Assembly (NCBI RefSeq): GCF_020991275.1
Contig: NZ_JAJLQY010000003.1
Coordinates: 496,001-560,000, forward strand
Direction: 5' to 3'
DNA from: Actinocorallia sp. API 0066
Lineage (GTDB): Bacteria > Actinomycetota > Actinomycetes > Streptosporangiales > Streptosporangiaceae
DNA length: 64,000 nucleotides
Every line of letters starts with the position of its first letter. The stretch's first letter is position 1. Of this stretch, positions 19,995 through 30,754 are shown piece by piece. Position numbers and translations under genes: made by a program. The notes under the pieces are model-generated. The model did no database searches, was not told the origin of the DNA, and saw only the letters and a list, made by a program, of their open reading frames with translations.

Positions 19995-20636
19995 TCACGG
20001 TGTCGCGGGGCGCCGGTATCTCAGGAAGAGATGGTCTCCATCCTGCCTTACCGCCGCGAGAGCCATCCCCCCGTCCAGGGCCGGGCCCCGGACGATCCTG
20101 GGCGCGGCGCCGCCCACGAGGTGCGGGGAGAGCGTCAGGCACAGCTCGTCGAGAAGCCCGGCGGCGGCGATCCCGCCCAGGACCGTCGGGCCTCCCTCGC
20201 ACAGCAGCCGGGTGAGGCCGCGCCCGTGCAACGCGGCGACGGCGGCGGTGAAATCCACCGACTCCTCCCCCGCGACGATCACCTCGGCCCGCTCCCGCGC
20301 CTCCGCGAGCCGGGGTGAGCGGGCCGTGGCGACGATCAGGACACGGCCGTCGAAGAGCGGCGCGGCGAGGTCCAGGTCGAGCGAGCGGGAGACGATCACC
20401 AGGGGGACGGGCGCGGGCCCGTACCCCTCGGCCCGCACCGTCTGCGCGCCCACGACGACCGCGTCCGCCATGTCGCGCAGTGCCAGGAACAGCCGCCGGT
20501 CCGTCTTGTTGCCGAGCCCGCCCGACAGGCCCGCGCGCGCCGCCGCGCCGTCGAGGCTGGCGATCATGTTGGCGCGCAGCCACGGGCCGTCCGGGTGGGC
20601 GTAGTCGGCGAGCAGGTCGGGCGGCAGGTCGGACAT
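19995..20636 (-). CDS. RibD C-terminal/dihydrofolate reductase-fold reductase (pyrimidine reductase family)
   Basis: 213-aa NADPH-dependent reductase related to the reductase half of RibD. Recognisable parts are RANMIASLDGAAA, a GNKTDRRLFLALRDMADAVVVGAQTVRAEGYGP segment (pieces of the NADPH and substrate site) and LLCEGGPTVLGGI near residue 150. No deaminase domain. Many actinomycetes have stand-alone members outside riboflavin operons with unknown substrates. It lies 35 nt upstream of the GntR gene in the same direction. Confidence 0.8.
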   Translation of the reverse strand: MSDLPPDLLADYAHPDGPWLRANMIASLDGAAARAGLSGGLGNKTDRRLFLALRDMADAVVVGAQTVRAEGYGPAPVPLVIVSRSLDLDLAAPLFDGRVLIVATARSPRLAEARERAEVIVAGEESVDFTAAVAALHGRGLTRLLCEGGPTVLGGIAAAGLLDELCLTLSPHLVGGAAPRIVRGPALDGGMALAAVRQDGDHLFLRYRRPATP

Positions 20637-20649
20637 GCCGCCCAGGGTC

Positions 20650-21486
20650 TCAGACGGACGCGGCGTGCCCGGCCACGAGGTCGGCGATCTCGTCCGGGCG
20701 GGCGGCGGGCGCCCAATGGCCGGTCTTCAGCCTGCGGACGCTGAGGTGCTTGGTGAACGGCGTGCAGGAGGCCGCCAGAGCGGGCGTGACGAACGCGTCG
20801 TCCTCCAGGACCACCAGCTGTACCGGCACGTCCGTGCGCCGCTCCCTGGGCCGCAGGACGCGCGACAGGATGTTCGCCCGGTAGAGGTTGACGCCGTACT
20901 GGCCGTCCAGCGCGACGGTCGGCGCGAAGTGCGGCGTGCTCATCCCCTCGGACCGCGCGACGACCTTGGCGCCCAGGCCCGTCCGCCAGGACAGCGCGGG
21001 CAGGAAAGGCAGGTGGAAGAAGGCGATGTACCAGGAGTGCAGGCCCTGCTTGAGGCCGCGCAGGGTGGTCGCGTGCGCCCGGTTCCAGCGGCCCGCGTGG
21101 TCGAGGCTCGGCCCGGAGATCGACGTGTAGGACAGGAAGCGCTCCGGCATCGTCGTCACCGCCTCCCAGCCCTGGATCGAACCCCAGTCGTGCCCGACGA
21201 GGTGGACGGGCGCGCCGGGGCTCACGTCGTCGGCCACCGCCGCCAGGTCGCGCATCAGGTGTTCGAACCGGTAGGCGGCCCTGCCCCTGGGACGGTCCGA
21301 CGCGCCGGCGCCGCGCACGTCGTAGGTGACGACCCGGTACCGGTCGGCGAGCCGGGACGCGACGCCGTCCCAGACGGTGTGCGTGTCGGGGTAGCCGTGC
21401 ACGAGCAGGATCGTCGGGGCGCCGGGGTCGCCCTGGACCTGGACGGCGAGGTCGACGCCGTCACCGCGGACGATTTTGTTGGACAT
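20650..21486 (-). CDS. Alpha/beta hydrolase (epoxide hydrolase-like)
   Basis: 278-aa alpha/beta-hydrolase. The oxyanion motif HGYPDT, the nucleophile elbow GHDWGSIQ (Asp nucleophile, as in epoxide hydrolases and haloalkane dehalogenases) and a C-terminal His (TGHWAP) are present. Resembles the hydrolase half of mycobacterial EphD-type proteins (SISGPSLDH region), but the fused SDR domain of EphD is missing. Precedes the reductase gene by 13 nt in the same direction; the two may form a small operon. Confidence 0.85.
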   Translation of the reverse strand: MSNKIVRGDGVDLAVQVQGDPGAPTILLVHGYPDTHTVWDGVASRLADRYRVVTYDVRGAGASDRPRGRAAYRFEHLMRDLAAVADDVSPGAPVHLVGHDWGSIQGWEAVTTMPERFLSYTSISGPSLDHAGRWNRAHATTLRGLKQGLHSWYIAFFHLPFLPALSWRTGLGAKVVARSEGMSTPHFAPTVALDGQYGVNLYRANILSRVLRPRERRTDVPVQLVVLEDDAFVTPALAASCTPFTKHLSVRRLKTGHWAPAARPDEIADLVAGHAASV

Positions 21487-21593
21487 ATTGCCAATTAGAG
21501 GGGTCCGGCCGCCGGTGGGTCAAGTCCGGGTCCCCCGAACGCATCGGTACACTGACAGGGATTTACGTGACCATGACGAAAGAGGCAGAGCAC

Positions 21594-21806
21594 ATGTCCG
21601 CTGGTGGATCGCACGCCGGAGACCCCAAGTCCTGGTTCGCGGTGTCCGTCGTAATGATCGGCTTCATCGTCGGCGGCGTCGGGTTGCCCCTCGGCAACTG
21701 GGTGCTGTTCTGGGCGGGCGTCGCCATCGTCGCCGCGGGCACCGTGCTCGGCGCCGTCGTCCGGATCATGGCCGACGTGGTCGTCGCCGTCCCGCCCAAG
21801 ATCTGA
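21594..21806 (+). CDS. Small membrane protein, HGxxPAAW family
   Basis: 70-aa protein with two transmembrane helices (VSVVMIGFIVGGVGLPL and WVLFWAGVAIVAAGTVLGAVV) after a short SHAGDPKSW segment that corresponds to the family HGxxPAAW motif. Family function is unknown. Starts further upstream are open (GTG 21567, ATG 21573), but the ATG at 21594 has an AGAGG box at good distance. A TACACT -10-like box lies at 21549-21554. Its stop overlaps the next start (TGATG), so the next two genes are probably co-transcribed. Confidence 0.75.
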   Translation: MSAGGSHAGDPKSWFAVSVVMIGFIVGGVGLPLGNWVLFWAGVAIVAAGTVLGAVVRIMADVVVAVPPKI

Positions 21807-21979
21807 TGTTCCACCGTCGGTCGCTCGACGAGGAGATCGCCCACCGGCAGGCCAAACGCGGCCCGCTGGCCGAGGGCAGGCACTTCGAGCACGGCCCCGC
21901 GAAGTTCATCTTCGTCAGCCTCATCAGCGTCACCATGGTGGCGCACGTCGTCGCCCTGGTACTGCTCAAGTACACCTGA
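21806..21979 (+). CDS. 57-aa single-pass membrane protein
   Basis: Starts MFHRRSLDEEIAHRQ, with a charged N-terminal half and one C-terminal transmembrane helix (FIFVSLISVTMVAHVVALVLL) ending KYT. The ATG overlaps the upstream stop and a GGAGG follows shortly after its stop for the next gene, so it sits inside a three-gene transcript. No known family recognised. The overlap geometry, charge pattern and clean helix support it as real. Confidence 0.7.
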   Translation: MFHRRSLDEEIAHRQAKRGPLAEGRHFEHGPAKFIFVSLISVTMVAHVVALVLLKYT

Positions 21980-21988
21980 CGGAGGTCC

Positions 21989-22555
21989 GTGCGCGCAGCG
22001 GCCGTCCTCACTACCGCGCTCATCCTGGTGGGCGCGGTCCTCGCCGTTCCCGCGGCCGCCGCGCCCGCGTCGCGCTGCGCGGCCGGGACCTGGCGGCTGG
22101 CCAAGGCCGACCTCACCGTGCGGCAGTCCGCCAAGACGAAGCTGCGCATCACCGGGGGCGCGGGCGCCGTCCTCGTCCTGGGCGGCGGCAAGGCGACGCA
22201 CCGCTACGCGGGCTCGGCCAAGCTGAAGGAGAGCGGCACCTCGGGCGGCGCGCAGGTCGCCGGGTGGCTCCGCTACCGGGGCACGCTCCGCCTCAAGGCC
22301 AAGGTCACCGGGACCCGGCTCACCGCCACCGTCTCCAGCGCGACCGGCAACGCCACGCTGAAGCTCCGCCAGACCCGCCCCCTCCAGCTCGACCCGGCGC
22401 CCCGCGGCCTCGCCGCGCTGCTGAAGTCCGGCGAGTTCAGCGGCGTCCCGTACAACGCGCAGGTCACCTGCTCGCGCACCGCGCTCAAGCTCCGCCAGAC
22501 CGGCACCAGCGGCGGCGCCGCCTTCACCGGCGCCTGGAGCTACCGCCGCGTCTGA
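21989..22555 (+). CDS. Secreted protein of unknown function
   Basis: 188 aa with a Sec signal peptide (residues 1-25, VLTTALILVGAVLAVPAAAA) and a mature part rich in Thr, Gly and Lys with alternating beta-strand pattern. Two Cys residues (SRCAAG and VTCSRT) could form one disulfide. Two similar segments (KLKESGTSGGAQVAGWLRYRG and KLRQTGTSGGAAFTGAWSYR) suggest an internally duplicated beta-barrel. GTG start after ACGGAGGTCC. Convergent with the DUF2306 gene (16-bp overlap). No function assigned. Confidence 0.72.
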   Translation: MRAAAVLTTALILVGAVLAVPAAAAPASRCAAGTWRLAKADLTVRQSAKTKLRITGGAGAVLVLGGGKATHRYAGSAKLKESGTSGGAQVAGWLRYRGTLRLKAKVTGTRLTATVSSATGNATLKLRQTRPLQLDPAPRGLAALLKSGEFSGVPYNAQVTCSRTALKLRQTGTSGGAAFTGAWSYRRV

Positions 22556-23289
22556 CGCCGCCCGCGCCGCAGGTACAGCTCGGCGACGATCAGGTTGGGC
22601 ACCCAGCACAGGAACGTCACGGCCGTGTAGGCGCGGTCGAAGGCGAGCTCCTCCGCCACACCGACCTGGGCCATGATCAGAAGCGGAGTCCACACGCGGA
22701 GCATCACGCCCGCGTAGGTGAGGGCGAACAGGCGGATCGCCCAGCGGCGGTGCGCGGGGACGTCACGGCGGCGGATCGCCCGGAACGCGGCGACGGCGCA
22801 GGCCAGCCACGCGAGGCCGAGCAGCCCGAACCCGGCGACCCCGACCGCGCCCGCGCCGTTGTAGGGAGCGATGACGAGGCCCGCCGCCCCCGCCAGCAGG
22901 ATCGCGATCAACACGACGCGTCCCACGCCCCGGTGCGCGCCCGTCCGGCGGGCCCGCAGCCGTGACGAGAGCTGGAGGGGGCTCAGCAGCAGGGCGAGGC
23001 CGCCGCACACGATGTGGACGTAGAAGGCCGCCTGCACCGCCATGGGCCGTCCCGCGACGTGCGCGGCGGTGCCGTGGTCGTCGGCGGCGAGCGAGTCGAG
23101 CGAGCTGAGCAGGTAGGGCAGCGGGGCGAGCAGGGCGATGGCCACGGCGCTGAGCGCGAGCCACCAGCCGCCCGCCCTACGGGCCGCCCGACTGCCGGGC
23201 TGTGTTTGATGTGCCCGGAAGACGGCCGCTTCGCGACCCCGACTTCGTCGGGAGCGGCCGTCTCCGGGCTGGTTCTGGGTCGTCGTCAT
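22540..23289 (-). CDS. DUF2306 family membrane protein
   Basis: 249-aa integral membrane protein. After a basic, hydrophilic N terminus there are seven or eight hydrophobic helices. The conserved DUF2306 layout is seen: HIVCGGLALLLSPLQL, RRTGAHRGVGRVVL, and RRRDVPAHRRWAIRLFALT with His/Arg residues at helix ends that may bind haem or a quinone. ATG at 23289 chosen because it is the first start that leaves a normal-length N terminus. Function unknown. Confidence 0.8.
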   Translation of the reverse strand: MTTTQNQPGDGRSRRSRGREAAVFRAHQTQPGSRAARRAGGWWLALSAVAIALLAPLPYLLSSLDSLAADDHGTAAHVAGRPMAVQAAFYVHIVCGGLALLLSPLQLSSRLRARRTGAHRGVGRVVLIAILLAGAAGLVIAPYNGAGAVGVAGFGLLGLAWLACAVAAFRAIRRRDVPAHRRWAIRLFALTYAGVMLRVWTPLLIMAQVGVAEELAFDRAYTAVTFLCWVPNLIVAELYLRRGRRQTRR

Positions 23290-23377
23290 GGACGGCACGC
23301 TAGGAACCGGCGGCGTCCGCGCGCCTCCCTCAGCCGAGTGATGTCGGGAATGCTGGTGTTCGGGCAGGATGCGGGGT

Positions 23378-24415
23378 ATGCGCATCTGGCTGGCCGCGGG
23401 GTTCCTCGTGCTGGCGGGGCTGGCGACGCTGGCCACCCCGCCCGCGCCGCCCTACCGCGACCTGGACGCCCTCGGCCTGACGCTGAGCGCCCTCGCGGCC
23501 CTCAGCCTCGTCTGGGTGCGCTCGGCGCCGCTGCGGGCCTTCGTCGCCGCCTGCGCGGTGCTCGTGGCCAACGCCGCGCTCGGCTACCCGGCGACGCTCG
23601 TGCACTGGCCGCTCTGGGTCGCGCTGTTCGCCTGCTTCGCGCTGGACCGCGACGTCAGGTGGCGGATCGGCTGCGGAGCGCTCTTCGCCGTCGCGCTCAC
23701 CGGGTTCTTCGTCCTGGACCGTGAGCCCGGCGAGACGCTGTCGGGCATCGCCGTCGGTGTGTTCATCGCCACCGTGGGCGGCGACGCCGTACGCAGCCGT
23801 CGCGCGGCCGCCGAGGCCGACCGGGCGAGGCTGCTGCTGGAGGAGCGCACCCGGCTGGCCCGCGAGCTGCACGACGCGCTGGGCCACGCCGTCAACGTCA
23901 TGGTGATGCAGGCGGCGGTGGGGCGCCGGGTGCAGGCCACCGATCCGGGGTTCGGCGCGGAGGCGCTGCGGCACATCGAGACGCTCGGCCGCGGCGCGCT
24001 GGAGGAGCTGGACCAGGTGATCCAGGCGCTCTCCCCGGACGGCGAGACGCCCGGCATGACCGATCTCGCGGCGCTCGCCGACCGGGTGCGCGCAGCCGGG
24101 CGCGCCCTCGACCTCAACGTCGGCGCGGTCGACCTCACGCCCGACGGAGCGCGCGCGCTTCACCGGATCGTCCAGGAGGCGGTGACCAACGCGCTCCGCC
24201 ACACCGACGCGGGACGGATAAGGCTGAGCCTCGCCCAGGCGGGCGACCGGGTGCGGCTGGAGGTGCTCAACGAAGGCCGGGGCTTCCCCTCGCCCGAGCC
24301 GGGCCGGGGCCTCGCCAACATGCGCCGCCGCGCCGACGCGCAGGGCGGCGAGTTCCACGCGGGCCCGGTGCCCGGCGGGTTCGCGGTGCGCGTCACCCTC
24401 CCGGCGGCGCCGTGA
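23378..24415 (+). CDS. Two-component sensor histidine kinase (HisKA_3/DesK type)
   Basis: 345-aa membrane kinase. Five or six N-terminal helices (about residues 1-135) have no large extracellular domain. The HisKA_3 dimerisation motif is LARELHDALGHAVNVMV with the phosphorylatable His near residue 165. The ATPase domain shows an N-box (QEAVTNALRHT) and G-box (GRGLANMRRR). ATG at 23378 has AGGA 8 nt upstream; an ATG 9 nt earlier is possible. Overlaps the response regulator by 4 bp (GTGA). The next transcript downstream is the lasso peptide cluster. Confidence 0.9.
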   Translation: MRIWLAAGFLVLAGLATLATPPAPPYRDLDALGLTLSALAALSLVWVRSAPLRAFVAACAVLVANAALGYPATLVHWPLWVALFACFALDRDVRWRIGCGALFAVALTGFFVLDREPGETLSGIAVGVFIATVGGDAVRSRRAAAEADRARLLLEERTRLARELHDALGHAVNVMVMQAAVGRRVQATDPGFGAEALRHIETLGRGALEELDQVIQALSPDGETPGMTDLAALADRVRAAGRALDLNVGAVDLTPDGARALHRIVQEAVTNALRHTDAGRIRLSLAQAGDRVRLEVLNEGRGFPSPEPGRGLANMRRRADAQGGEFHAGPVPGGFAVRVTLPAAP

Positions 24416-25056
24416 TCCGGGTGTTCCTCGCCGACGACGAGCCGCTGGTCCGCACCACGCTGCGGGCGCTGCTCGCGGCCGAACCCGGCCTGACCGTCGT
24501 CGGCGAGGCGGCCAGCGGCCACCGGACGGTCGAGGGGGTGCGCGCGCTGCGCCCCGACGTGGTGCTCATGGACGTGCGGATGCCGGGCTGGGACGGGGTA
24601 CGGGCGACCCGCGAGATCGCCGCGTGGGATCCGCCTCGCCCGCGCGTCCTGGTGCTCACCACGTTCGACCTCGACGACATCGTGGACGACGCGATCGCCG
24701 CCGGGGCCGACGGGTTCCTGTTGAAGCGGGCGACCCCTGAGGAGATCGTCTCGGCGGTGCGCACGGTGGCTTCCGGGGACGCCGTCCTTGCGCCGCGCGT
24801 CACGCGCCGTCTCCTACGCGACCTGGCGGCCCGGCCGCGCCCCGCGCCGCTGCCCGTGCCGCTCACCGACCGGGAGGAGGCGGTGCTGCGCGCGCTCACC
24901 GAGGGCCTGTCGAACCCGGAGATCGCGGACGCGCTCACCATCTCACTGGAGACGGTGAAGACCCACATCAAGAGCATCCTGCTCAAGCTCGGGGTGCGGG
25001 ACCGAACCCAGGCGGTCATCTGGGCATACCGGACGGGCTTCGCCAACGAACACTGA
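24412..25056 (+). CDS. LuxR/NarL-family response regulator
   Basis: 214-aa partner of the upstream kinase. Receiver domain: acidic pocket FLADDEP, phosphorylated Asp in LMDVRMPG, Thr in VLTTFD and Lys in FLLKRATP. The C-terminal LuxR HTH runs from about residue 148 (LTDREEAVLRAL, NPEIADAL, ETVKTHIKSILLKLG). GTG start overlapping the kinase stop. Its stop lies 91 bp before the lasso precursor gene, making that promoter a plausible target, though this is only positional evidence. Confidence 0.92.
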   Translation: MIRVFLADDEPLVRTTLRALLAAEPGLTVVGEAASGHRTVEGVRALRPDVVLMDVRMPGWDGVRATREIAAWDPPRPRVLVLTTFDLDDIVDDAIAAGADGFLLKRATPEEIVSAVRTVASGDAVLAPRVTRRLLRDLAARPRPAPLPVPLTDREEAVLRALTEGLSNPEIADALTISLETVKTHIKSILLKLGVRDRTQAVIWAYRTGFANEH

Positions 25057-25147
25057 ACCCGTCACCCGTGATGTTTCCCTAAAGAGAGGGATATAACTCG
25101 CGGCCCGCTTTCTACCCTCGGAGCGCAGGCACCGAAGGGAGAAAGAC
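25057..25147 (+). promoter_or_regulatory. Candidate promoter/leader of lasso peptide operon
   Basis: The 91-bp gap contains TATAAC (25092-25097) as a possible -10, directly preceded by a small inverted repeat TCCCT (25076-25080)/AGGGA (25087-25091) that could be a regulator site, and a Shine-Dalgarno GAAGGGAG 5-6 nt before the precursor ATG. No clear -35 is present, which would fit an activator-dependent promoter. Confidence 0.4.
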
Positions 25148-25300
25148 ATGCAGCCTCGCACCGACGGCCCCGTCCCCGTGGACGCGGTCTACGAACCGCC
25201 GCTGCTCACCGAGGTCGGCGGGTTCACCCGGCTGACCCTCGGCGGCGGCTACCTCGGCCTCGACAACTTCTGGCAGACCGACTGGTACGCCCGGCGGTGA
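25148..25300 (+). CDS. Lasso peptide precursor
   Basis: 50-aa precursor. The leader matches the actinobacterial consensus YxxPxLxxxGxFxxxTxG exactly: Tyr15, Pro18, Leu20, Gly24, Phe26, Thr30 and Gly32. With Thr30 at the penultimate leader position, cleavage after Leu31 gives a 19-residue core GGGYLGLDNFWQTDWYARR. Gly1 amine and Asp8 side chain would form an 8-residue macrolactam ring; bulky Trp11, Trp15 or Tyr16 could hold the thread. No Cys, so class II. ATG follows GAAGGGAG. The stop overlaps the cyclase start (GTGA). I do not recognise the core as any described lasso peptide, from memory only. Confidence 0.93.
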   Translation: MQPRTDGPVPVDAVYEPPLLTEVGGFTRLTLGGGYLGLDNFWQTDWYARR

Positions 25301-27132
25301 CCGCCGACTGGCTCGCCGTCGTCCCCGACGGCAGGGCGGGGAGCGCGGTCGCGGCCGGGCTCCCCGCCTCGCGGGTGCTCCGCCACGCGTCCGGACGGCC
25401 GTGGCTGCTCGCCTCAGGGCGGCGCGCGGCGGAGATCACCGAGGCGCGGGCGGGCGGCCTGCGCGCCGCCGTCATCGGGCCGTGCGGGACGGACGCGGAC
25501 GGCCTCGCCCGGCTGCTCCGCCGCGTCCGCTCCCTCACCGACGTGGACCGCCTCGCCTCCCGGCTGTCCGGAAGCCATCACCTTGCCGTCTCACTTGATG
25601 GGAGGGTGCGCTTTCAGGGCACGGTCGCGCAGGTCCGGCGGGTGTTCTCGCGGCGTGTCGGCGGGGTCGTCGTCGCGGCGGACCGTGCCGACGTGCTCGC
25701 CGCGCTGCCGCCGTCCGCCGGGATCGACGACACGGCGCTGGCGCTGCGGCTGCTGTACCCGCTGGTGCCGCCGCCGCTCGCGGGCCTGCCCCTGTGGCGC
25801 GGGGTGCGGGCGCTGCCCGGCGACCACTGGCTCGGCCTCGACGGCGACGGAAGCGTCCGTGAGGTGCGCTGGTGGTATCCCCCGGAGCCTCGCCTTTTGT
25901 TGGACTCGGGTGCCGGACTCCTGCGGGAACGGCTTACCGAGGCCGTCGCGGCGCGGCGTGCCGAACGGCTCAGCGCCGACCTCTCCGGCGGGCTCGACTC
26001 CTCGACCCTGTGCTTCCTCGCCGCAGGGCGGGGCGCGGCCCTGACGACGCTGCGGGAGGCCGTCACCGATCCGGGCAACGACGACGCCCGGTGGGCCGCC
26101 CTGTGCGCCGCACGGCTGCCCGACGCCGCGCACACCGTGTTCGCCCCGACCGACCTGCCCGGCAGGTACGCGGGGCTCGACGGGCCCGCCGACCCGGAGG
26201 AGCCGTTCCCCTGGGTCCGCTCGCGGGCCGACCTCGCCGCGCTCGCCGGACACGCGGGCCGGGCCGGAACCGTCCACCTGGCCGGGCACGGCGGCGACGA
26301 ACTCCTCACCGTGCCTCCGTCGCACCTGCACGACCTCGCCGGGCGGGCTCCCCTGCGCGCGCTGGCCGCCCTGCGTAGGCAGCGCGCCCGGTGGGGGTGG
26401 CGGCGGCGCGACCTGCTCGCGCTCCTCGACCGGACGGGCTACGCCGCCTGGCTGGCACGGGCCGCGCCGCACGTCGAGGATCGGGAGCCCCGCCTCGCGC
26501 CGTTCGCCTGGGGCACGCACGGGATGATGCCGCCCTGGGCGACCCCGGACGCCGTCGCCCTCGTGCGGGACGCCCTGCGGGAGGCCGCCTCCGATCGTCC
26601 CGAGCCGCTCGCCCCGCAGCGCGCCCACCACACCCAGCTCCACTTCGCCGCCCTGTGCGGACGGGCCGTCAGGCTGGCCGGACGCCACCACGACGCCCAC
26701 GGCACCGCGCTCTCAGCCCCCTACCTGGACGACAGGGTGATCGAGGCCGCTCTCGCCGTCGACCTCGCCGCGCGGGCGCGTGCCGACACCGTCAAACCCG
26801 TACTCGCCGCGGCGGTGCGCGGCACCGTCCCGGACGCGCTGCTCACCCGGCGCACCAAGGGCGAGTTCAGCGCCGAGGTGTTCACCGCCCTGCACCGGCG
26901 GCGGGCCGACGTGCTGGCGCTGCTCAACGACCCTCTGCTGGCCGGACGCGGCCTGGTCCGCGCGTCCGCCGCCCGCGCCGCCGTGTTCGCCGTGGGCCCC
27001 ACCGCGGGCCCGCTCTGGCACCTGGACATGACCCTCGCCTGCGAGACCTGGCTACGCGCGCGCCCTCCCGTCGTCGCCGCGCCCCCCGCCCCGTCCCCAC
27101 CCGACCGATCGGAGGAGACATGCTCACCCTGA
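25297..27132 (+). CDS. Lasso peptide cyclase (asparagine synthetase-like, LasC/McjC)
   Basis: 611-aa enzyme that adenylates the core Asp8 side chain and closes the isopeptide bond to Gly1. The N-terminal part (about 1-200) is a degenerate glutaminase-like domain without the N-terminal Cys, as in other lasso cyclases. The ATP-pyrophosphatase loop SADLSGGLDSSTLCF lies near residue 230; LAGHGGDELL and later RTKGEFSAEVF are further synthetase motifs. GTG start overlaps the precursor stop by 4 bp and its own end overlaps the RRE gene by 13 bp, so production is tightly coupled. Confidence 0.93.
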   Translation: MTADWLAVVPDGRAGSAVAAGLPASRVLRHASGRPWLLASGRRAAEITEARAGGLRAAVIGPCGTDADGLARLLRRVRSLTDVDRLASRLSGSHHLAVSLDGRVRFQGTVAQVRRVFSRRVGGVVVAADRADVLAALPPSAGIDDTALALRLLYPLVPPPLAGLPLWRGVRALPGDHWLGLDGDGSVREVRWWYPPEPRLLLDSGAGLLRERLTEAVAARRAERLSADLSGGLDSSTLCFLAAGRGAALTTLREAVTDPGNDDARWAALCAARLPDAAHTVFAPTDLPGRYAGLDGPADPEEPFPWVRSRADLAALAGHAGRAGTVHLAGHGGDELLTVPPSHLHDLAGRAPLRALAALRRQRARWGWRRRDLLALLDRTGYAAWLARAAPHVEDREPRLAPFAWGTHGMMPPWATPDAVALVRDALREAASDRPEPLAPQRAHHTQLHFAALCGRAVRLAGRHHDAHGTALSAPYLDDRVIEAALAVDLAARARADTVKPVLAAAVRGTVPDALLTRRTKGEFSAEVFTALHRRRADVLALLNDPLLAGRGLVRASAARAAVFAVGPTAGPLWHLDMTLACETWLRARPPVVAAPPAPSPPDRSEETCSP

Positions 27133-27377
27133 GACCCCACGTCGTGACCGCCGACACCAACGGCCTGACCGTCCTCCTGGACGCCCGCTCAGGCCGCTAC
27201 TGGCAGCTCAACCAGACCGGCAGCACCGCCCTACGCGCCCTCCTCGCGGGCCGCCCCCCGGCCCAGGTCGCCGCCGACATCGCCGCCCACTCCCACACCC
27301 CCGAAACCACCGTGGCCACCGACATCGCAACCCTCATCCACGCCCTCATCACAGAACGCCTGGCCACCGATGAGTGA
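27120..27377 (+). CDS. Lasso peptide RRE protein (PqqD-like, LasB1)
   Basis: 85-aa RiPP recognition element that binds the precursor leader (the YxxP region) and presents it to the peptidase. The PqqD-like winged-helix pattern is visible: TLLLDARSGRYWQLNQTGSTALRALL written here as VLLDARSGRYWQLN then GSTALRALL, followed by helices (AADIAAH, VATDIATLIHALI). ATG after CGGAGGAGAC. It overlaps the cyclase by 13 bp and the peptidase gene by 8 bp. In actinobacteria the RRE and peptidase are separate genes, as here. Confidence 0.92.
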   Translation: MLTLRPHVVTADTNGLTVLLDARSGRYWQLNQTGSTALRALLAGRPPAQVAADIAAHSHTPETTVATDIATLIHALITERLATDE

Positions 27378-27813
27378 ACCCATGGCCCTGGAACTCCCGC
27401 CTCCCGTCACCCGCCGCTCCCGAGCCATCGCCCGCCTCGCCGTCGCCCTCGCCACCCCCCTCTCCCACCTCGCTCCCGCCCGCCTCGCCACCGTCCTTCG
27501 CGCCGCCCGCCACAAAGCGCCCCCCGCCTCCCGGGACCTCGCCGCCACCGCCCGCGACGCCGTCGTGGCCGTCAGCGCCCACTGCGCGGGCCAGGGCTGC
27601 CTACGCCGCTCCATCGCCGCCGCCCTCTACTGCCGCCTCCACGGCGCCTGGCCCACCTGGCACGTAGGCGTCCGCACCACCCCCTTCCGAGCCCACGCCT
27701 GGATCGAAGCCCAAGGCACCCCGGTGAACGAACCCTTCCCGCCCGCCTACTACACCCCCATCCTCACCGTCCCCCCACTGACGGGCCTTCCGAAACGGGG
27801 GGTCAGAGGTTGA
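27370..27813 (+). CDS. Lasso peptide leader peptidase (transglutaminase-like, LasB2)
   Basis: 147-aa cysteine protease that removes the leader after Leu31. Catalytic Cys in GQGCLRRSIA, His in FRAHAWIEA and a downstream acidic/Asn position (TPVNEPFP) match B2 proteins of lasso clusters. The coding strand of this gene is strikingly C-rich. The gene is last in the operon; its 3' end overlaps a convergent HAD gene by 11 bp, leaving no space for a downstream exporter. Confidence 0.92.
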   Translation: MSEPMALELPPPVTRRSRAIARLAVALATPLSHLAPARLATVLRAARHKAPPASRDLAATARDAVVAVSAHCAGQGCLRRSIAAALYCRLHGAWPTWHVGVRTTPFRAHAWIEAQGTPVNEPFPPAYYTPILTVPPLTGLPKRGVRG

Positions 27814-28441
27814 GGAGGTGGAGGGCGGCCAGGAGGGAGTCGACTACGGGGGCGCCGGTTTGTTCCAGGTCGGTGCGGCGTTGCATGCCGCCGGTGTAGA
27901 GGATGGCGCGGGCGCCGATGTGGGCGGCGGCCACCGCGTCGTCGGCGGCGTCGCCGATGACGGTGAGGTCGGCGGGGGCGATGCCGAGAGCGGCGGCGTG
28001 GCGGACCATGTGCTCGGCCTTGCCGCCGCCCGGAGCGCCTACGAGGCCGTCCACGCGGGTGAAGTAGGAGGTGATGTCGAAGCTTCCGACCGCGCCGGTG
28101 AGGTGGGCGTGCCCGGCCATCGAGAGGATCGACTGGGTGCGTCCGGCGCTCGCCACGAGGTCGAGCGCGGCGCGCGCCTCGGCGGCCAGCGGCGCGGTGG
28201 GCATCAGCCGCTCGTAGTGCGCGTGGAACTGGGTGTCCAGGTACTCCCACTCGCCCTCGCGCAGCGGCCGCCCCAGCAGCCGCTCGTAGGCGACCCAGAT
28301 CGGCCGCGTGTAGGCCGCGACGACCTCAGGCCCGGTGACGCCCTCCGCCTCGGTGCCCTTGAACACCTCGTACGTCGCCCCCAGGACGACGTCCCGATCG
28401 TCGAACAGCGTCCCGTTCCAGTCCCACACCACGTGCTTCAC
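27803..28441 (-). CDS. HAD-family hydrolase (phosphoglycolate phosphatase-like)
   Basis: 212-aa phosphatase. Motif I DWNGTLFDD, with the nucleophilic and acid/base Asp replaced in its second position by Asn (DWN instead of DxD), motif II Ser in ILSMAG and motif IV IGDAADDAVAA are visible. The DWNGTL form occurs in a HAD subgroup annotated as phosphoglycolate phosphatase-like, so the Asn may be family-typical rather than inactivating. ATG start; convergent overlap with the lasso peptidase gene. Substrate unknown. Confidence 0.85.
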   Translation of the reverse strand: MKHVVWDWNGTLFDDRDVVLGATYEVFKGTEAEGVTGPEVVAAYTRPIWVAYERLLGRPLREGEWEYLDTQFHAHYERLMPTAPLAAEARAALDLVASAGRTQSILSMAGHAHLTGAVGSFDITSYFTRVDGLVGAPGGGKAEHMVRHAAALGIAPADLTVIGDAADDAVAAAHIGARAILYTGGMQRRTDLEQTGAPVVDSLLAALHLLNL

Positions 28442-28515
28442 CGGCCCAGTTTAGGCGCGCCCCCAGAACCCGCGTCCACCGGATTTCCACGCGGAAGGCG
28501 GAGCGGCCGGACACG

Positions 28516-28547
28516 AACGGCGGCCCCGTCGCCCCGGAGCCGCCGTT
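28516..28547 (-). terminator. Candidate terminator hairpin after yceI
   Basis: AACGGCGGC (28516-28524) and GCCGCCGTT (28539-28547) are a perfect 9-bp inverted repeat with a 14-nt loop, 63 bp beyond the yceI stop on the minus strand. No U-tract is obvious. Confidence 0.45.
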
Positions 28548-28609
28548 GGTCTGTGGGGAACTGTCCTGAAGCGCCCCGCGCCGACCCACAACGCCGGGGG
28601 CGGCGCGAT

Positions 28610-29161
28610 CTACCCGGCGCTCTTGATGGCGGAGATCTCGAACTCCAGGGTGATCTTCTCGCTGACGAGGACGCCGCCGGTTTCGAGGGCGGCGTTGAAG
28701 GTGACGCCGAAGTCGCTGCGGTTGATCGTGGTGGCGCCCTCGAAGCCGATGCGGTCGTTGCCGAACGGGTCCTTGGCGGCGCCCTGGTACTCGAAGTCGA
28801 TCGTGACGGGCTTGGTGACCGCCTTGATCGTCAGGTCGCCGCTGACGCGGAAGACGTCGTCCTTGATCTGCTCGACGGAGGTGGACCGGAAGGTGATCTC
28901 CGGGTAGGTCTCCACCTCGAGGAAGTCGTTGGTGCGCAGGTGCCCGTCGCGCTGCTCGTTGCGCGTGTCGATGCTGGCGGTGGCGATCTTGACCTCGACG
29001 GACGAGGCGGCCGGGTCGGCGCCGTTGACCTGGGCCGTCCCGGAGAACTCGTTGAACGCGCCGCGGACCTTGGTGACCATCGCGTGCCGGGCGGAGAAGC
29101 CGATCCGGGTGTGCGCCGGGTCGAGCGTGTAGGTGCCGGTGAGCTCGGTGAGGTCGGACAT
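28610..29161 (-). CDS. YceI family lipid-binding-type protein
   Basis: 183-aa lipocalin-like beta-barrel; family members bind polyisoprenoids or similar hydrophobic molecules. Typical positions are visible: GTYTLDPAHTRIGFSARHAMVTKVRGAF at the start, then TIKAVTKPVTIDFEY and FEGATTINRSDFGV. No signal peptide, so this is a cytoplasmic YceI, common in actinomycetes. ATG after GAGGAGTC. Divergent from a MarR gene with a perfect 16-bp palindrome between them, so it is almost certainly under that MarR's control. Confidence 0.93.
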   Translation of the reverse strand: MSDLTELTGTYTLDPAHTRIGFSARHAMVTKVRGAFNEFSGTAQVNGADPAASSVEVKIATASIDTRNEQRDGHLRTNDFLEVETYPEITFRSTSVEQIKDDVFRVSGDLTIKAVTKPVTIDFEYQGAAKDPFGNDRIGFEGATTINRSDFGVTFNAALETGGVLVSEKITLEFEISAIKSAG

Positions 29162-29192
29162 CGTTGACTCCTCGGGATCTGCGTGGGAAAGA

Positions 29193-29208
29193 AGTTGAAC
29201 GTTCAACT
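29193..29208. promoter_or_regulatory. Perfect MarR operator between yceI and marR
   Basis: AGTTGAACGTTCAACT is a perfect 16-bp palindrome with the TTGAAC/GTTCAA half-sites expected of MarR proteins. It lies 31 bp upstream of yceI and 45 bp upstream of the MarR start, well placed to control both. Confidence 0.8.
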
Positions 29209-29253
29209 CTGAGCATACGCAGCTTTGGTGACGTGTCAAGTAAACTGACGTCC

Positions 29254-29784
29254 ATGACTCGATGGCTCTCCGACCTGGAACAACACGCGTGGCGCGGGCT
29301 CATGCAGATGCACGCGGAGGTCTGGGCCGCCGTCACCAGGGACCTCCAGGCCGACTCGGGCCTGTCCGCCGGCGACTACGCCGTCCTGGTGCCCCTCAGC
29401 GAGCAGGACGACCACCGGCTACGCGTCACCGAACTCGCCCGCGCGATGCGGTGGGAGCGCAGCCGCCTGTCCCACCAGTTGTCGCGGATGGAGAAACGCG
29501 GCCTGATCGTGCGCAGGGAGTGCCCCGAGGACGCGCGCGGCGCGTTCGCCGAGATCACCGAGCACGGCCGCACGGTGATCACCACGGCGGCGCCGCACCA
29601 CGTGGCGAGCGTGCGCAGGCACTTCTTCGACGCGCTCACCCCCGAGCGGGTCGCCCAGCTCTCGGCGATCTCCGACGCCGTCCTGGCCGGGCTCGGCGGG
29701 CCGGACGGGCCGGACGGCCCGGGCGGATCAGAGGCCGAGCCGTGCCCTCAGTCGTCCTCGGACGGGATGAACGGGAGCACCTGA
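29254..29784 (+). CDS. MarR family transcriptional regulator
   Basis: 176-aa regulator with winged HTH (VTELARAMRWERSRLSHQLSRMEKRGLIVRR split over residues about 62-92) and dimerisation helices at both ends. The C-terminal tail is Gly/Pro/Asp-rich with a GGPDGPDGPGG repeat. ATG at 29254 chosen: TRWLSDLEQ is the standard opening of this subgroup, and a TAAACT -10-like box stands 7 nt upstream without a Shine-Dalgarno, indicating a leaderless mRNA. The stop lies within the end of the convergent gene below (37-bp overlap). Confidence 0.9.
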   Translation: MTRWLSDLEQHAWRGLMQMHAEVWAAVTRDLQADSGLSAGDYAVLVPLSEQDDHRLRVTELARAMRWERSRLSHQLSRMEKRGLIVRRECPEDARGAFAEITEHGRTVITTAAPHHVASVRRHFFDALTPERVAQLSAISDAVLAGLGGPDGPDGPGGSEAEPCPQSSSDGMNGST

Positions 29785-30083
29785 GTCTCCACCGAGCCGT
29801 GCTCCCTGATGCCCCGCTCCAGGGCGGCGACCCGGTGGTGCAGGGCGCCGTTCTCGCGGAGCAGCTCGTCGTTGTCGGCGCGCAGCGCGGCGAGCCGACG
29901 GGCGGTGCGCCACAGCGCCGCGGCGGCGCCGAGGAGGATCCCGACGGCGAGCGCGCCGAGCGCGGGCAGCCACAGCGCCCCCGCCCCGGCGACGAGCAGC
30001 AGGACCACCGCGCCGAGCGCTCTGCCGTGGCGCTCCGCCCGGTCCCACGCCCTGTCCACGCTCCTCGGAATCCGCACCCGCAC
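29748..30083 (-). CDS. Small membrane protein with C-terminal coiled coil
   Basis: 111-aa hypothetical protein. A basic amphipathic N terminus (RVRIPRSVDRAWDRAERHGR) is followed by two transmembrane helices (about residues 23-62, GAVVLLLVAGAGALWLPALGALAVGILL) and a leucine-heptad coiled coil (LAALRADNDELLRENGALHHRVAALE). The GTG at 30083 has a strong GGAGGGGG box; the open frame upstream of it is Arg-rich junk. Coiled coils of this kind often mediate partner binding, but no function is known. Confidence 0.65.
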   Translation of the reverse strand: MRVRIPRSVDRAWDRAERHGRALGAVVLLLVAGAGALWLPALGALAVGILLGAAAALWRTARRLAALRADNDELLRENGALHHRVAALERGIREHGSVETQVLPFIPSEDD

Positions 30084-30244
30084 CTGGCCCCCTCCGTGAC
30101 GTCTCCAGCCTGCCGAAGGACAACGGCGGACGCGAACCGGGGTGTTCCCGTTCCGGCGGGATGCCGGGAATCTCACACGGTACCGCCTCCCAGGCCGGAA
30201 GAACCCCACCCAAAATGATCTTGTAAAAGGCTAAGATCGGGGGG

Positions 30245-30754
30245 ATGAGCACTCCCCCGCACCGCCCGAGCGCCCGTGTCCTGCTGGTGGACGAGCAGGA
30301 CAGGCTGCTGCTGTTCCTCGACGGGCTCAAGGACAAGTTCTGGCTCACCCCCGGCGGCGGGCTCGACCCCGGCGAGACGGTCGAGCAGGCGGCGGCGCGC
30401 GAGCTGTTCGAGGAGACCGGCCTCAGCGTCGAGCCCGCCGCGCTCGGGCCCGTGGTGGCGACGGCGTCGGGGTACTACATCGGCGAGTGGGACGGGGTGC
30501 TGCGCACCGCCACCGACACCTACTTCTTCCTGCGGACCGAGCACTTCGAGCCGGACACCGCCGGGTTCACCGACTACGAGCGGCAGACCGTCGACGAGCA
30601 CCGCTGGTGGCCGCTCGCCGACATCGTGGCCGCGCCGCCCACCGTCGTCCCGTGGGGCCTGTCCGGGCTGCTGCCGGGCCTGCTGTCCGGACGGCCCCCG
30701 CAGGCGCCCGTCGCGCTCCCCTGGCACCACCCGGGCGTCGGCCCCGCTCTGTGA
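30245..30754 (+). CDS. Nudix hydrolase
   Basis: 169-aa pyrophosphohydrolase. The Nudix box is complete: GGGLDPGETVEQAA then ARELFEETGL (G-x5-E-x7-REUxEExGU), with the metal-binding Glu residues present. The substrate-specific C terminus (RWWPLADI) resembles ADP-ribose/NUDT-like members but does not fix a substrate. ATG lies 7 nt after a TAAGAT box, so the mRNA is probably leaderless. Confidence 0.9.
   Translation: MSTPPHRPSARVLLVDEQDRLLLFLDGLKDKFWLTPGGGLDPGETVEQAAARELFEETGLSVEPAALGPVVATASGYYIGEWDGVLRTATDTYFFLRTEHFEPDTAGFTDYERQTVDEHRWWPLADIVAAPPTVVPWGLSGLLPGLLSGRPPQAPVALPWHHPGVGPAL

Follow-up and report, generated by a model that had tools for sequence, protein, structure and literature searches.

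A predicted class II lasso peptide operon with a new core on a thinly sampled cyclase branch

Lasso peptides are antibacterial in many cases, and an ABC exporter gene (D) is an optional component of their clusters. In the window, i.e. the whole 64,000-nucleotide stretch analyzed here, which belongs to a 7.0-Mb genome in 44 contigs, a four-gene set of the lasso type lies at positions 25148–27813 on the + strand in the order A-C-E-B, with neighbouring genes overlapping. Does this set form a complete operon, what would its product be, and to which lineage of lasso peptides does it belong?

The operon and its predicted product

The features of the operon are as follows.

25148–25300, + strand: precursor gene A, encoding a 31-aa leader and a 19-aa core followed by a stop (translation, NF033521)
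25241–25297, + strand: putative core peptide GGGYLGLDNFWQTDWYARR, with predicted cut site and ring
25297–27132, + strand: lasso macrolactam cyclase C, asparagine-synthetase-like, with a GTG start (PF00733)
27120–27377, + strand: RRE/PqqD-like leader-binding protein E (B1) (NF033530)
27370–27813, + strand: leader peptidase B2, a transglutaminase-like cysteine protease (NF033537, PF13471)

The products of A, C, E and B2 each exceed the cut-off of a Pfam or NCBIfam model, which was counted in favour of the operon reading. The precursor matched the leader model NF033521 with 28.7 bits (cut-off 19), E matched NF033530 with 83.2 bits (cut-off 70), and B2 matched both NF033537 (102.1 bits, cut-off 33) and PF13471 (89.5 bits). 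The cyclase matched PF00733 (117.2 bits, cut-off 21; 1.7e-33) and did not reach the thresholds set for lasso cyclases by NCBIfam (NF033561, 204.1 of 300 bits; NF033535, 33.3 of 525 bits); these shortfalls were counted against the operon reading, as were its best identity of 51% to another cyclase and its long branch. Membership in the albusnodin family was rejected on the score of this NF033561 match and on that of the albusnodin precursor model NF033525 (16.6 bits, under the cut-off of 30). Since NF033521 exceeds its cut-off at one place in the whole 7.0-Mb genome, namely the window precursor, and PF13471 also matches once genome-wide, the lasso observation is not due to chance.

The cyclase has an intact SGGLDSS stretch, with Asp234 conserved in 91 of 93 aligned subjects (the window among them). 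In B2, Cys77 is conserved in 82 of 83 aligned subjects and His109 and Glu121 in all 83 (window counted), and E retains a G-x-Y-x-x-L-N stretch, each position of which is conserved in 73 to 76 of 77. We take these residues to be those doing the chemistry in their families. The GTG start of the cyclase sits within the precursor stop (a 4-nt GTGA overlap), and across 25148–27813 the frames are open, the motifs intact and the overlaps compact. The original prediction had thus described the gene set correctly: translation of 25148–25300 is identical to the 50-aa precursor given there, its agreement with the leader consensus is borne out by the NF033521 score, and the overlapping cyclase, RRE and peptidase genes are present.

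The leader ends in YEPPLLTEVGGFTRLTL and carries, as lasso precursors do, Thr at position -2, and Asp8 is the lone acid at core positions 7–9; these two features predict that the leader is cleaved off ahead of Gly1 and that the lactam joins Gly1 to Asp8. The core lacks Cys and therefore falls into class II. Judged from the sequence, the predicted product is a class II peptide with a Gly1-Asp8 ring and an 11-residue tail, with a computed lactam mass of 2256.050 Da ([M+2H]2+ 1129.032). The same class and ring had been proposed earlier, together with hand-calculated values of 2256.05 Da and 1129.03; the computation confirms the latter, and the lone Asp8, the absence of Cys and the motifs of B2, E and C support the former. 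The terminal Arg-Arg could be trimmed, which would shift the mass to 2099.949 or 1943.848 Da (computed) after loss of one or two Arg residues.

By analogy with the known families, we infer how the window peptide would be cleaved, cyclized, threaded and plugged: i) E would bind the leader stretch YEPPLLTEVGGF, ii) B2 would cleave after Leu at -1, with Thr at -2, using its Cys-His-Glu site, iii) C would activate Asp8 and condense it with the amine of Gly1, closing a ring of eight residues around the tail threaded through it, and iv) Trp15, Tyr16 and the Arg-Arg end would be the likely plugs.

Upstream region and control

Four features upstream of the precursor may bear on the control of the operon.

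23369–24415, + strand: sensor histidine kinase (HisKA_3/HATPase_c, Pfam), a possible regulator linked to the operon by position
24412–25056, + strand: NarL/LuxR-type response regulator (PF00072 and PF00196)
25074–25093, + strand: palindrome TTTCCCT-N6-AGGGATA, role putative
25108–25145, + strand: hairpin in the 5' RNA, pairing the precursor's purine-rich ribosome-binding site, role putative

The response regulator gene ends 91 nt upstream of the precursor. A regulator match on the same strand in the 3.5 kb preceding the cyclase was found in 6 of 93 cyclase loci, the window counted, and in L137, the nearest relative found for the window cluster (see below), there was none; a conserved lasso-linked two-component system was therefore rejected. 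The 5' region of the precursor (25060–25147) contains two hairpins, the second of which pairs the ribosome-binding site. This second hairpin has 17-nt arms that are 82% complementary. The fold of 25100–25150 has an energy of -20.6 kcal/mol (z -2.60), with 2 of 200 shuffles equally stable, and that of 25060–25150 has a z of -4.18, with none of 200 shuffles equally stable. The L137 5' region has no unusually stable fold (z 0.81 and -0.56). The palindrome at 25074–25093 is the single such site in the window when both strands are read, as judged by a search pattern derived from the site itself, and may be part of the first hairpin or a possible operator. No Rfam family matched up to an E value of 1 in 22400–28600, and no sigma-70-like promoter was found in 23100–28600. 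The neighbouring histidine kinase and response regulator, together with the hairpin at the ribosome-binding site, may control the operon. Neither the two-component genes nor this hairpin nor the relative L137 figured in the original prediction.

Relatives and novelty of the core

Within the family, the precursor had matches in at least 18 of 341 genomes at an E value of 0.001, the window's own among them, and the cyclase in at least 87 of 341 at 1e-40. An order-wide precursor search returned the same 18 genomes (of 345), and at least 7 of 394 genomes in a sample of the class matched at an E value of 0.01. These counts are lower bounds because few first-look candidates were scored per genome (three for the cyclase, and no more than 17 for the genus of genome G631, the genome carrying L137). 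Among the three genomes of the window's genus, the precursor was found in the window's own only; another species of this genus (G002) has a citrulassin-type cluster (L112) instead. A two-row profile gave matches in at least 47 of 392 genomes of the G631 genus, at 65 places (E value 0.001), of which 30 were taken as loci, 29 of them new; among the cores compared from these loci, that of G631 was the only one resembling the window's.

The loci fetched for comparison numbered 80, comprising 79 of the 108 cyclase places beside the window's (the strongest 78 and one more) and one place from the precursor search. In 76 of them the cyclase is preceded by a precursor recognized by its leader pattern, and the cores include citrulassin-type and LP2006-type sequences, with LP2006 itself exact in L092. 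Several other loci are worth noting: 1) L080, L081, L107 and L123 have lasso-like cyclases and no precursor recognized by the leader pattern used. 2) L055 (G244) carries three tandem LP2006-type precursors with differing cores ahead of one cyclase. 3) L059 (G293) has a lasso-type leader and a core, GAPPGDVPGRPPRPFPFCSHQA, with Asp at 6 and no acid at 7–9, next to a cyclase free of stops; this core may represent either an odd ring or a decayed core. 4) L155, L158, L171, L084 and L088 encode rings with two adjacent cysteines (e.g. FGCCGRWLDNPFGYGWFDF and MTCCGKWADSIWGYFFD) and tails lacking Cys, the first three with two such precursors each.

No core near-identical to that of the window was found in the 341 family genomes, in the class and one-genus samples, in one genome-contig scan or in open-access text. 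Genome-contig scans with B2 and with the precursor, which depend on exact matches of eight residues and may omit the genome of the window itself, gave no confirmed relative, and the precursor had no match in a search of plasmids. The stretches GGGYLGLD, LGLDNFW and NFWQTDWY are absent from open-access main texts, a scope outside which supplementary catalogues lie, and no such core stands in the printed part of the PMC12427821 table, which lists named lasso peptides. The novelty claimed for the core in the original prediction thus held within the genomes, contig scan and main texts searched. Since the genome is public, it is quite possible that an automated list already includes the core. The machinery is ordinary and known, and only the peptide is new within the searches made. 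The literature drawn on comprises passages of PMC7549694, PMC6784204, PMC5974421, PMC12427821 and PMC13352647.

Lineage of the cluster and comparison with known systems

The closest of 123 distinct core candidates, which include chance pattern matches, was GGCDYGNDNHYQTMCPSP of G631, with a BLOSUM score of 31 over 13 positions (the next scored 21). When the core was shuffled 5000 times with Gly1 and Asp8 left in place, 13 of the shuffles scored as well, a figure flattered by the choice of the best of many. The corresponding locus, L137, in a genome of the same class as the window, has a cyclase 51% identical to that of the window, the same A-C-E-B order and the same 4-nt GTGA overlap of precursor and cyclase, and the two cores share Gly1, Gly2, Gly6, Asp8, Asn9, Gln12 and Thr13. 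In contrast to the Cys-free window core, that of L137 has one Cys in its ring (Cys3) and another in its tail (Cys15), from which a class III product is predicted, and it has a Pro-rich end where the window has DWYARR. No match to the window kinase or regulator was found in the 13 kb of L137 that was read.

A careful tree was built from 62 of 92 cyclase rows, after removal of those that were long, of near copies and of most rows of the citrulassin type. In it, the window and L137 are joined at 100/98 and group with the anantin-like cluster L161 at 95/91, apart from a class IV/siamycin clade (split 99/98). A quick 91-row tree (without L114) also joined the window and L137 (98) and left their deeper place unresolved. 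It is possible, though we lean against it, that the two form a small core lineage of their own, described by G-G-x-x-x-G-x-D-N-x-[WY]-Q-T, whose sister synthetases produce a Cys-free peptide (class II) in one case and a peptide with a ring-tail disulfide (class III) in the other, and that the window operon is gated by the hairpin at the ribosome site and by a two-component system of its own. If true, disulfide class can change while the enzyme lineage is unchanged.

A different placement would make the window a member of the class IV (LP2006/felipeptin-type) lineage minus the tail disulfide. The window core keeps Gly6, the acid at 8 and the Asn9 and Trp11 of LP2006, and over positions 1–13 it scored a mean BLOSUM of 10.4 against 27 class IV-like cores, a set chosen by the pattern Gly6, acid at 8 and Cys13, and -4.6 against the other cores; moreover, in a quick tree without L137 the long branch of the window cyclase lies next to a clade of 31 rows, 27 of which have cores containing Cys, the set of 32 being supported at 95. 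However, among 5000 shuffles that retained Gly1 and Asp8, the mean was reached by 239 and the best score by 662, and GKDWWGDDWYGQLY, a core from another clade, scored higher (17.0). This shuffle test and the careful tree with L137 weaken the class IV reading, which we consider quite improbable. Because the core resemblance to class IV is weak and the careful tree separates the two, we hold that the window represents a putative class II lineage of its own, and not class IV.

Whether the cluster is active is a separate matter, as the genes could be intact and yet silent or decaying, either unexpressed or with a product that is not exported. The ribosome-binding site inside a hairpin and the restriction of the precursor to one of three genomes of the genus are compatible with this, as is the finding that none of 10 flanking proteins (19995–30754, Pfam scan; three of the 10 without any family) belongs to a transporter family, for which reason peptide export is unexplained. 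The open frames, intact motifs and compact overlaps argue otherwise, and L137 likewise showed no transporter family among seven ORFs scanned, only three of which matched any family; a silent cluster thus appears unlikely. Since topology is not visible in sequence, the product might also be an unthreaded branched-cyclic or linear peptide, but B2 and E fall in lasso-specific NCBIfam families and the cyclase in the matching asparagine-synthetase-like group, which makes such a product very improbable. Taken as gene content and motifs, the window very likely carries a complete class II lasso peptide operon, one that is probably functional.

The window cluster leaves knowledge of lasso biosynthesis unchanged and adds one well-formed core that the searches made did not find elsewhere. 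Its cyclase sits on a long branch with few sampled members, next to a relative of another predicted disulfide class. For these reasons the cluster is a sensible candidate for heterologous expression and for probing the tolerance of lasso synthetases to changes in tail and disulfide.

Among characterized peptides, the class IV members LP2006 and the felipeptins (sequences as given in the part of PMC12427821 consulted) share with the window core Gly1, Gly6 and an acid at 8, giving an 8-residue ring. They differ in having Cys13 and Cys17 in the tail, the two cysteines that mark class IV, where the window has Thr13 and Ala17. The window cyclase also lies outside the clade of their cyclases in the careful tree, although placement in that class IV-rich clade is no part of the formal definition. 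Anantin (GFIGWGNDIFGHYSGDF, listed in the same part of PMC12427821) belongs to class II. An anantin-like core, GFIGWGKDIFGHYGGGF, is otherwise unlike that of the window (BLOSUM score 3), but the anantin-type class II peptides and the predicted window peptide have in common a Cys-free core with Gly1, Gly6 and Asp8.
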